Shown in pieces: positions 28,099 through 36,268 of a stretch of DNA of 38,322 nt. The stretch lies in the NCBI RefSeq assembly GCF_030268965.1, contig NZ_BSSE01000043.1, positions 1 through 38,322 on the forward strand, read 5' to 3'. The position numbers were made by a program, and so were the translations under genes. Source of the DNA: Microtetraspora sp. NBRC 16547 (lineage in GTDB: Bacteria; Actinomycetota; Actinomycetes; Streptosporangiales; Streptosporangiaceae). The notes beneath the pieces were generated by a model that had not been told where the DNA came from, made no database searches, and saw nothing but the letters and a program-made list of their open reading frames with translations. Each line of letters starts with the position of its first letter. Within the stretch, counting starts at the first letter, position 1.

Positions 28099-28983
<885 letters not shown>

Positions 28984-33623: not shown

Positions 33624-33645
33624 CGTGCCATTAGCGTGCCATTGA
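33624..33645. repeat. Arm-type tandem repeat without tRNA core
   Basis: CGTGCCATTAG and CGTGCCATTGA, the same 11-bp repeat as in att scars 1 and 2, but with no tRNA-Gly core within 150 bp to the right. The repeat enters the 3' end of the UMP kinase gene and supplies its last codons and stop. Confidence 0.75.
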
Positions 33646-34386
33646 CCCCGGTGTCCCCAAGGCTGCCGGATCACGGGTGATCCGGGTGCCCACGTCCTCG
33701 CCCTGGCAGATCGCCTTCATAGCGCCTGTCGCCGCCACGTCGAACACGTGCATGAGGAGCCCCTGCTCGTTGGCGAGCACGAAGGCGCTCTCGTCCATGA
33801 CCCTTACTCCGGCCGCCAGAGCTTCTCGGTAGGTGAGGTTGGTGTACCGCTTGGCATCCGGGTTGAGGTTCGGGTCGCTGTCGTACACGCCATCGACACC
33901 GCGCTTGGCCACCAGCAGCGCATCCGCCTCAAGCTCCAGAGCCCGCTGGACAGCGGGATAGTCCGTCGTGACATACGGTTGGCCGATGCCGCCGGCGAGC
34001 AGAACGATCAGCCCGCGACGAAGGTGCCGGTCGGCGCGAAGCCGGATGAAAGGCTCCGCCACACTCTGCATGGGCACTGCGGTCATTACCCGCACGTCTG
34101 TTTGCGAACGTGCGGTCAGCACTCCACGCAGCATCAGCGCGTTCATGACCGTGCCGAGCATGCCGATGTTGTCAGCTTCGGCCCGGCCTATTCCCCAGCC
34201 CTCGGCCATCCTGCCACGGAAGTAGTTGCCGCCACCGATGACCACCGCGACCTCGACGCCCAGCGCGTGGACTGACAGGATCTCATCCGCCAACTGAGCG
34301 AGACTGGCCGGATCCGTGCCCCAACCAGAGTCTCCCGCGAGCGCCTCGCCGCTCAGCTTGACTATGACACGTGAGTAACGACTCAT
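33631..34386 (-). CDS. pyrH: UMP kinase-like protein, accessory copy
   Basis: 251 residues of the UMP kinase branch of the amino-acid-kinase fold, which phosphorylates UMP to UDP. VIVKLSGEALAG, VVIGGGNYFRG, DNIGMLGTVMNALMLRG and ADALLVAKRGVDGVYDSDP are the nucleotide and phosphate contacts. Where classical PyrH has STDTTA, this reads TTDYPAVQRA. The usual rpsB-tsf-frr neighbours are absent, so this looks like a paralogue rather than the housekeeping gene. After GEDVGTRI, the normal end, extra residues run into the arm repeat, which encodes the last SMAR and stop. The ATG at 34386 follows GGGAACGG. Activity is uncertain. Confidence 0.85.
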   Translation of the reverse strand: MSRYSRVIVKLSGEALAGDSGWGTDPASLAQLADEILSVHALGVEVAVVIGGGNYFRGRMAEGWGIGRAEADNIGMLGTVMNALMLRGVLTARSQTDVRVMTAVPMQSVAEPFIRLRADRHLRRGLIVLLAGGIGQPYVTTDYPAVQRALELEADALLVAKRGVDGVYDSDPNLNPDAKRYTNLTYREALAAGVRVMDESAFVLANEQGLLMHVFDVAATGAMKAICQGEDVGTRITRDPAALGTPGSMAR

Positions 34387-34614: not shown

Positions 34615-35565
34615 TCACCCGGTCCTGAGGTTCTTGTTGTATTCCTCGACCAGCTTGAGGTACTCGGATTCGGAGGCGGCGAACTTCGTGACGCCCTTCT
34701 TCGGGTCGGTCGTCACGAACCACAGCCAACGGCCGGCGGCCGGGTTCAGGGCAGCCTTGATGGCATCGGCGCCTGGGTTGCCGATGGGGCCGGGCGGCAG
34801 GCCGAGGCGCTTGTAGGTGTTGTACGGCGACCGGCTCTGGAGATCTTCGTGCGAAGCCGCGATGCCGAACTTGTTCAGGCCGTACAGGACCGTGCTGTCC
34901 ATCTTCAACCCCATCTCGGGCGTGCGGCTCAGCCGGTTGTAGACAACCCGCGCGACCTTGGGCATGTCGCGCTTGCTGGCCGACTCGGCCTGGACGATGC
35001 TGGCGATGGTCATGATCTCCAGTGGCGTACGGCCGACACGCTTGGCGCCTTCCACCAGGTTGGTGTCCTCGGCGACGCTCCTGAAGTGTGTCACCATCGC
35101 GGCGAGGATCTCCTCCGGGCTCGACGTGGGCGAGACCTCATAGGTCGCGGGAAAGGCGAATCCTTCCAGAGCGCCCTTGGCGTAGGCGGGAAGGTCGAGC
35201 GCCTTGCCGTCCTTGGCCGCCCGCTTGAACTCCGCCAAGGGCCTGCCGGTCACCGTCGACAGCTGCTCCAAGATCTGCGAGAGCCGCAGTCCTTCGTTCA
35301 CCGTCACGGTGATCCGGGTCTCCGCACGCGTCTCGCCGGAGCCCTGCCCGGTGAGAACCCCGGGGGCCTCCGCCCGCGAGGACAGCCCCTGGACCACGAG
35401 CGTGGATCCGACCGCCAGCACGGTGACGGCTGCCGCCGCAGCCAGGGCGAGGCCGCGGCGACGGGATCGGTTCTCGTTGACCTGGAGGAACCGGCCAGGC
35501 GGGGGTGGCTGTTCCTCATGGGCCATGTCGGAAAGGGTCTCGCGCAACAGATCCTCGATGTTCAT
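34615..35565 (-). CDS. MltG-like endolytic transglycosylase, anti-sigma-like layout
   Basis: 316 residues. A cytosolic segment of about 37 residues (MNIEDLLRETLSDMAHEEQ...PPPPGR) precedes one membrane helix (about 38-60). Outside is a MltG/YceG domain: a LysM-like part (VTVNEGLRLSQILEQL), IASIVQAES with Glu194 aligning with the family's catalytic Glu, then DSTVLYGLNKF, SPYNTYKRLGLPPGPIGNPG and YLKLVEEYNKN. MltG cleaves nascent glycan strands. The ATG at 35565 (GAGGGAG five bases upstream) overlaps the ECF sigma gene by four bases, the place where anti-sigma factors are usually encoded. Shorter than typical MltG. Confidence 0.9.
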   Translation of the reverse strand: MNIEDLLRETLSDMAHEEQPPPPGRFLQVNENRSRRRGLALAAAAAVTVLAVGSTLVVQGLSSRAEAPGVLTGQGSGETRAETRITVTVNEGLRLSQILEQLSTVTGRPLAEFKRAAKDGKALDLPAYAKGALEGFAFPATYEVSPTSSPEEILAAMVTHFRSVAEDTNLVEGAKRVGRTPLEIMTIASIVQAESASKRDMPKVARVVYNRLSRTPEMGLKMDSTVLYGLNKFGIAASHEDLQSRSPYNTYKRLGLPPGPIGNPGADAIKAALNPAAGRWLWFVTTDPKKGVTKFAASESEYLKLVEEYNKNLRTG

Positions 35566-36074
35566 CGGAACTCCCTCACGGTGCTCAGTTCAGGTGCGGC
35601 CTTCTTGAGACGTTCCAATGAGCGGTAGATCTGGCTGCGGACCGACCCCACTCCGACACCGAGGAGCCGCGCGATCTCGGTCTCGGACATGTCTTCGAAG
35701 TAACGCAGCACGAGCATGGTCCGCTGCCGGGTTGTCAGCCGGGCAAGAGCCGTGCGTATCACCAGGCGAAGATCTGCGACTTCGGCGTGCCCGTCCCCGG
35801 TCTGGTCGGGCATCCATCCGGTGGACACTTCCGCGATGCGGGAACGGCGCCGCCACCAGCTCACCTGCTCGTGGTACATGACACGACGGACGTAACCCTC
35901 GATGGCGGCAGGGTCGTGAAGACCGCGCCACTTCGCGGCCGTCTTCGCCAGCGCCGACTGCACCAGGTCCTCGGCGGCGTGCCGGTCACCGGTCAGCAGG
36001 TAGGCGGTACGGAACAGCGCCCCTGATCGATCGATGACGAAGTCCCGGAAGTCCGCCTCAAATCCTGGATCCAT
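35562..36074 (-). CDS. ECF sigma factor (SigE-family)
   Basis: 170 residues from the ATG at 36074, preceded by GAGGAGG at five bases. Region 2 (about 8-80): FVIDRSGALFRTAYLLTGDRHAAEDLVQSALAKTAAKW, with the core-binding and -10 helices. Region 4 (about 110-160): LARLTTRQRTMLVLRYFEDMSETEIARLLGVGVGSVRSQIYRSLERL, a typical HTH. Linker of about 25 residues. It should direct RNA polymerase to a small regulon and be held inactive by a partner, most plausibly the membrane protein encoded by the overlapping next gene. No promoter sequence for its own regulon could be fixed. Confidence 0.93.
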   Translation of the reverse strand: MDPGFEADFRDFVIDRSGALFRTAYLLTGDRHAAEDLVQSALAKTAAKWRGLHDPAAIEGYVRRVMYHEQVSWWRRRSRIAEVSTGWMPDQTGDGHAEVADLRLVIRTALARLTTRQRTMLVLRYFEDMSETEIARLLGVGVGSVRSQIYRSLERLKKAAPELSTVREFR

Positions 36075-36268
36075 CCATCCTCCTCGTGATGTCACCAGGC
36101 AAGGACGCGGACAGGGTGTCAATCTATGCCGACATGGCCGAACTGATCCGTATCAAGGGCTGCCTGCCCTGACCTGCATCATGTTCGCCACTTGGCGGCC
36201 GAGGCCCAGACCGGTGGTCTGGTGGGCCGACCGCAAGGAGAGCCGAACCCCGGGCGGGAACAGGATGA

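Follow-up and report, generated by a model that had tools for sequence, protein, structure and literature searches.

Why should a peptidoglycan transglycosylase fold be encoded directly behind a sigma factor gene, and overlap it? The ways in which bacteria monitor wall synthesis from outside the membrane are understood only in part, and such a pair of genes is found in the 38,322-nt stretch of Microtetraspora sp. NBRC 16547 DNA analysed here (contig NZ_BSSE01000043.1; the window). The reading we favour, and hold to be reasonably likely from comparison of related loci, is that the product of the second gene is a membrane-bound anti-sigma factor acting on the SigE-family sigma factor encoded by the first, in which an older propeller-like sensor has been replaced by an MltG domain.

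The first gene (35562..36074, minus strand) encodes a SigE-family ECF sigma factor of 170 aa. Its product reaches 183.5 bits with TIGR02983, above the cut-off of 141.55, and contains Pfam regions 2 and 4 (PF04542 and PF08281) without a long region 3. The start codon is ATG in the window and GTG at the same place in nine orthologues. The two genes had been predicted to overlap by four bases, and they do: the partner start lies inside the sigma stop codon, in an ATGA at 35562..35565 (minus strand).

This arrangement recurs in related genomes. At least ten of 150 genomes of the family, the window's own included, have a full-length match to the partner among the matches listed; in all ten, which carry seven genus codes, the sigma gene lies upstream with the ATGA overlap, and some MltG match is found in 146 of the 150. 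When named genomes were scanned with the sigma protein, 30 loci emerged, of which 27 have an MltG partner, one has a propeller-type partner (L149) and two are remote (L151 and L152); the remote loci have no overlapping partner and were omitted from later sets. The four-base overlap is present in every one of the 27 MltG-type loci, with an ATG start in 25 and a TTG start in two. The named loci come from Nonomuraea, Streptosporangium, Microtetraspora, Planotetraspora, Planomonospora and Spongiactinospora; one Nonomuraea record is entered as [Actinomadura] parvosata, and one Streptosporangium species carries two copies. Two genomes that share the window's genus code can be linked through identical proteins to Microtetraspora glauca and M. 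fusca, which makes Microtetraspora the probable genus of the window. Since the pair and its overlap recur in this way (27 of 30 named loci and, among the matches listed, at least ten of 150 family genomes), a chance juxtaposition or an annotation artefact can be ruled out. In a phylum-wide sample of 396 genomes only the window's own genome matched at E<=1e-75, a threshold too strict to pick up distant pairs or ones that arose independently; the pair may therefore occur outside the family as well.

The partner gene (34615..35565, minus strand) encodes a putative anti-sigma factor of 316 aa with an MltG outer domain. The original prediction of a short cytosolic part, one membrane helix and an extracytoplasmic MltG domain is correct on each point. 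Residues 1-38 (35452..35565) form the cytosolic segment, the proposed sigma-binding module, which ends in an arginine cluster: four of the ten residues preceding the hydrophobic segment are R or K. The hydrophobic segment is the only one in the protein and starts at about residue 40, where the best 19-residue window also begins; we place the alanine-rich membrane helix at about residues 39-61 (35383..35451). A linker of about residues 62-84 follows (35314..35382), poorly kept at a mean identity of 0.33, and leads into the MltG-like domain, about residues 85-312 (34630..35313). The partner reaches 206 bits with PF02618 YceG over residues 82-307 (cut-off 32.4) and 137 bits with TIGR00247 MltG (cut-off 103.4). 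Topology alone proves nothing about function here, because a housekeeping MltG, too, has a membrane anchor and a short cytosolic end.

The MltG domain is shortened. It matches positions 66-274 of the 275 in the Pfam profile, compared with positions 1-273 in the other MltG of the same genome, and the unmatched positions 1-65 correspond to a gap in the alignment with that other MltG in all 30 rows. An excerpt of one study places a LysM domain between the helix and the catalytic domain of MltG (PMC8135044); the part missing from the sigma-linked MltG is taken to be this LysM region, and a LysM part in that position, which would characterize an MltG/YceG protein, is lacking in the partner. What remains of the domain has the expected fold. 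An AlphaFold2 model of the partner (25 sequences; the alignment left out L130, L141 and L143, three of the 27 named MltG-type loci) has a mean pLDDT of 72, and in Foldseek all ten PDB chains at E<=0.001 are MltG/YceG proteins, the best being 4iiw (E 1.6e-14). Because residues 16-81 fall below pLDDT 50, the model informs on the MltG fold and says little about the N-terminus; the first two blocks have values of about 56 and 46, and a helix is modelled at residues 3-15 at low confidence.

Glu194 (codon at 34984..34986, minus strand) pairs in an alignment with the conserved Glu of 2r1f, which we take to be E. coli YceG, and would presumably be equivalent to E218 of E. coli MltG, going by the length of that protein. 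E218Q has been used for E. coli MltG, and E242 is named as catalytic in B. subtilis MltG, according to the same excerpt (PMC8135044). All 30 distinct MltG-type proteins (from 37 rows) keep the catalytic Glu, and 29 keep the motif GLPPGPI. The DST motif is altered in nine (six DSP, two NST and one ASP). The ASP form belongs to the sigma-linked MltG at L037 (partner gene starting at 1501), in which the catalytic Glu is kept; this protein is perhaps a binding-only form. Many relatives in the family have two MltG genes about 0.6 kb apart, for example G129:C81:57702 and 59014; the window's own genome showed a single MltG besides the one in the sigma pair.

The layout of the partner is not special to the MltG gene but general among SigE-family loci. 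Twelve of the 81 sigma matches in the window's own genome lie above the TIGR02983 cut-off, and ten of these twelve genes, the window's included, have a partner frame at the exact four-base overlap, with a short N-terminus, an R/K cluster and one hydrophobic segment; at L008 the overlapping frame begins further upstream. With 203.6 bits, the SigE-family sigma gene at L003 (G000:C24:20945-21406) scores highest in the genome; it has no overlapping partner, and a MarR-like gene lies downstream of it on the opposite strand.

The similarity among these partners extends to the sequence of the inner segment. It had been proposed that the N-terminal residues be sought in proteins encoded beside SigE-family genes, and profile comparison finds them there: with the helix excluded, the N-terminal profile of the MltG-type set aligns in hhalign to that of 12 paralogous partners with a score of 35.1, and to that of ten other partners of the same genome with 33.9 (one of these ten, L015, follows a sigma gene below the cut-off), compared with a maximum of 10.1 in 60 column-permuted controls for the 12-paralogue comparison. 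This suggests a general short anti-sigma module shared by SigE-family sigma factors. No Pfam or NCBIfam model matches the inner segment above its cut-off in the partners scanned; the N-terminal half of the window's partner has a weak match, which includes the helix, to the NCBIfam anti-sigma model NF052375 (E 6.4e-4; 19.8 bits, cut-off 100). Another SigE partner of this genome, at L007 (sigma gene G000:C1:484538-485005; partner L007:509-1480, minus strand, ATGA overlap), carries a PASTA domain (PF03793, E 3.7e-9, scanned in the genome's own copy). It has matches in eight of 61 family genomes, and in the own genome and five others these are near full-length and adjoin a sigma gene. Two SigE partners of a single genome thus bear wall-related outer domains, MltG in the window and PASTA at L007.

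The strongest evidence that sigma factor and partner form a paired system is an exchange of outer domains between the partners of close sigma orthologues. The sigma protein has matches at E<=1e-40 in 67 of the 150 family genomes: ten at 81-100% identity, which are the MltG-type loci, six at 72-77%, and others at no more than 59%. In the six, the sigma gene likewise overlaps a gene for a membrane partner, of about 400 aa, that starts MNIE-LLRE like the window's and continues into an unrelated outer domain. BLASTP aligns the two kinds of partner over residues 1 to about 60-80 (E about 1e-11 to 1e-20 among the matches listed, two rows of which extend to residues 116-144), and residues 1-27 have a mean identity of 72% (59-81%, 168 comparisons; L120 was too short and was dropped from the partner comparisons). 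The inner segment and helix thus stay with the sigma gene through an exchange of the outer domain. Homologous sigma genes with a different dedicated partner, which the original prediction had counted against itself, are thus found, and they favour the proposal, because the same N-terminal segment stands on another outer domain.

These propeller-like partners of Streptosporangiaceae share with the window's partner the N-terminus, the helix, the overlap and a motif upstream of the sigma gene (see below), and differ in an outer domain unrelated to MltG. We label this domain propeller-like from WSPDG-like repeats recognized by eye and from PD40/WD40 matches below the cut-off in the distant partners L109 and L112 and in L006 of the own genome; Pfam gave no propeller family in the scan of three of the seven close propeller-type partners (L103, L104 and L149), and a single-sequence model of L149 with a beta-rich outside has a mean pLDDT of 43, too low for use.

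Which outer domain is older can be judged only in part. In a tree of 48 sigma rows, all 13 outgroup rows and the basal pair of the ingroup have propeller-type partners, which makes a propeller-like ancestral state parsimonious, if not firmly supported: the 28 MltG-type rows and the five other propeller-type rows do not split into single clades, the MltG label needs two changes with one possible, and the branch above the basal pair is poorly supported (81/74). The MltG domains themselves give a simpler picture. The 28 sigma-linked domains form one clade against 30 other MltG rows (SH-aLRT 96, from a fast method and with one faulty row, L049, whose branch is absurd, among the 30), and this single clade indicates that the MltG domain was captured by the sigma partner once.

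Upstream of the sigma gene, the ten orthologues share little DNA sequence beyond GGCATAG-N16-CGTCCTTG and the ribosome-binding region. In the window this block is a promoter-like motif, GGCATAGAT-N14-CGTCCTTG, at 36100..36130 on the minus strand; the window holds one match at three or fewer mismatches, compared with 0.06 expected. Of the 27 named MltG-type loci, 26 have GCATAG-N16-CGTC upstream when spacers of 15-20 are allowed, GCATAG-N14-18-CGTC lies upstream in 18 of 19 other relatives compared with six of 9500 mononucleotide shuffles, and the motif is also common to the loci with propeller-type partners. Its 14-base form is perfect at the operon in nine of the ten genomes and has one mismatch in the tenth (G096). 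The other 11 SigE loci of the genome show no such motif in the 200 bases that precede the match. The sigma gene is probably autoregulated through the motif at 36100..36130, to judge from this pattern of conservation. No regulon or wall-related target could be established from it: in its strict form the motif picks out the operon and nothing else, and looser versions do not rise clearly above controls. The 31-base form at three or fewer mismatches has 46 matches in the own genome compared with 12 for a reversed control, the operon having no mismatch and the next best site two; the 14-base form at one mismatch or fewer has 46 matches in the ten genomes compared with 27 in the control, including two non-operon sites that each recur in two genomes and look coding by eye; and GGCATAG-N15-17-CGTC has nine matches compared with ten.

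Constraint along the partner was compared by pN/pS. Across 28 loci, pN/pS, calculated as simple Nei-Gojobori proportions that are raw for saturation and codon bias, is 0.267 for residues 2-27, 0.777 for residues 28-38, 0.655 for the helix, 1.015 for the linker, and 0.722 and 0.676 for the two parts of the MltG domain (the latter being the catalytic part), with 0.246 for the sigma gene. In the ten genomes it is 0.221 for residues 2-27 and 0.214 for the sigma gene, and 0.641 for the catalytic part of the linked MltG compared with 0.569 for that of the other MltG, whose inner end has 0.435. The near-equal values imply that residues 2-27 are as strictly kept as the sigma factor, in line with the predicted conservation of the N-terminal segment, and the linked MltG domain is about as strictly kept as the housekeeping one. 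The assignment of the sigma-linked role to the first 37 or so residues draws strong comparative support from the domain swap, the profiles and the constraint. Residues 28-38 vary, and the constraint therefore sits in the first 27 residues, among which E4, L7, R8, E17, E18 and P20 are invariant.

These data also bear on the possibility that the MltG protein is an effector rather than a sensor, the sigma factor driving its own operon so that the second gene supplies a spare strand-cutting enzyme under wall stress and the N-terminus is a mere anchor. The catalytic Glu kept throughout, the constraint near that of the housekeeping enzyme and the autoregulation suggested by the upstream motif would all suit such an enzyme; a mere anchor, on the other hand, need be neither the most constrained part of the protein nor common to partners that lack MltG, and we regard this explanation as unlikely. 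The same constraint, together with a catalytic Glu in every distinct row and GLPPGPI in all but one of the 30, speaks against the outer domain being a degenerate leftover on an anti-sigma factor, one that neither cuts nor binds glycan and leaves the signal to another protein or to the membrane. Such decay would agree with the missing N-terminal part of the domain and with a DST motif that is not intact in nine of the 30; we consider it highly improbable.

Read as an anti-sigma factor, the partner can be set beside several known systems. It is co-encoded with an ECF sigma factor, and it has a cytosolic N-terminus, a single helix, an outer domain and an N-terminus conserved together with the sigma gene, as a membrane anti-sigma factor would. 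Against this reading, its inner segment is shorter than a class I anti-sigma domain and has no zinc motif: that domain is described in an excerpt of a survey as exceeding 50 aa (101 +/- 33) and often having a zinc motif (PMC7406223), compared with about 38 residues here and neither Cys nor zinc motif. The class II factor CnrY, in the same excerpt a short anti-sigma factor with two helices that wrap the sigma factor (PMC7406223), agrees in length and has likewise a short inner segment before one membrane helix and co-encoding with an ECF sigma factor; the two-helix binding is known there, whereas here it can only be guessed at, one helix (residues 3-15) being modelled at low confidence. By analogy, CnrY would provide a precedent for so short an inner segment, and RsgI one for a glycosidase as sensor. 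RsgI of Clostridium thermocellum is described in an excerpt of one study as an anti-sigma-I factor with a GH10 sensor domain (PMC12203970). The likeness to our putative anti-sigma factor lies in a membrane anti-sigma protein with a short inner end and exchangeable outer sensors, a glycoside hydrolase among them; the difference is that RsgI partners SigI, whereas here the sigma factor is a SigE-family ECF and the outside has a peptidoglycan transglycosylase fold. No RsgI model appears among the partner's matches in Pfam (E<=1) or NCBIfam (E<=0.01). With housekeeping MltG/YceG the partner shares the fold, the catalytic Glu and the single membrane anchor, but it lacks the N-terminal part of the YceG profile, has the inner end of a SigE partner and is in an operon with the sigma gene, and the same genome retains another, longer MltG.

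Enzyme-like outer domains on membrane anti-sigma factors are already known, and an MltG domain on a SigE-family partner would be new. Full-text searches of open-licence literature turned up no paper describing a sigma partner with an MltG domain; an excerpt of one article mentions MltG and endolytic transglycosylase next to another gene (PMC11256431).

The sign of the interaction is a separate matter. The N-terminus could bind the sigma factor and recruit, stabilise or activate it, since the comparative evidence establishes linkage between segment and sigma gene and does not speak to the sign of the effect. Sequestration by a membrane-bound partner is given as the most common ECF mechanism in an excerpt of a review (PMC8999054), and by that analogy alone we find a positive role decidedly unlikely.

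If the partner is an anti-sigma factor, a rough scheme for its working can be proposed. The first 37 or so residues, with a short helix, a proline-rich stretch and the arginine cluster, would hold the sigma factor at the membrane, and the shortened MltG transglycosylase domain would stand outside in place of the older propeller-like one. There it might engage nascent, uncrosslinked glycan strands or the synthases making them, and a change in this engagement, for example when crosslinking is blocked, could alter or destabilise the membrane protein. Release might then follow, possibly via proteolysis at the alanine-rich helix, and the freed sigma factor would transcribe its own operon from the GGCATAG/CGTCC motif and perhaps further genes. 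Our guess of uncrosslinked strands or synthase contact as the signal follows from the substrate preference and PBP binding of MltG: according to the excerpt cited above, nascent strands without crosslinks are its best substrate, and it binds PBPs in B. subtilis (PMC8135044). The originally suggested role of the MltG domain as a sensor of wall synthesis is on this basis an inference from MltG biochemistry.

More broadly, and with somewhat less than even confidence, we suggest that SigE-family sigma factors of Streptosporangiaceae share an anti-sigma module of about 37 residues on interchangeable outer domains (propeller-like, PASTA and MltG), and that in this branch MltG was recruited a single time to serve as a live reporter of nascent peptidoglycan before crosslinking, in which case a wall enzyme would directly control transcription. 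Close sigma orthologues with the same inner segment and either a propeller-like domain or MltG outside offer a ready evolutionary comparison, with which the proposed sigma-binding module and the proposed sensing by MltG can each be tested directly.

We also considered whether the pair belongs to a larger operon. Across the 28 loci and part of the window, clustering of open reading frames gave no cluster present in more than three loci beyond the sigma factor, the partner and antisense frames, the method using a lossy G+C filter that kept the sigma factor in 18 loci and the partner in 18 sources including the window. Just downstream of the pair in the window is the UMP kinase gene pyrH (33631-34386, minus strand; TIGR02075, 269 bits, above the cut-off), and further along, at 28099-28983 on the minus strand, a secreted-looking protein is encoded that contains a long low-complexity run of PTPTVTPT repeats.
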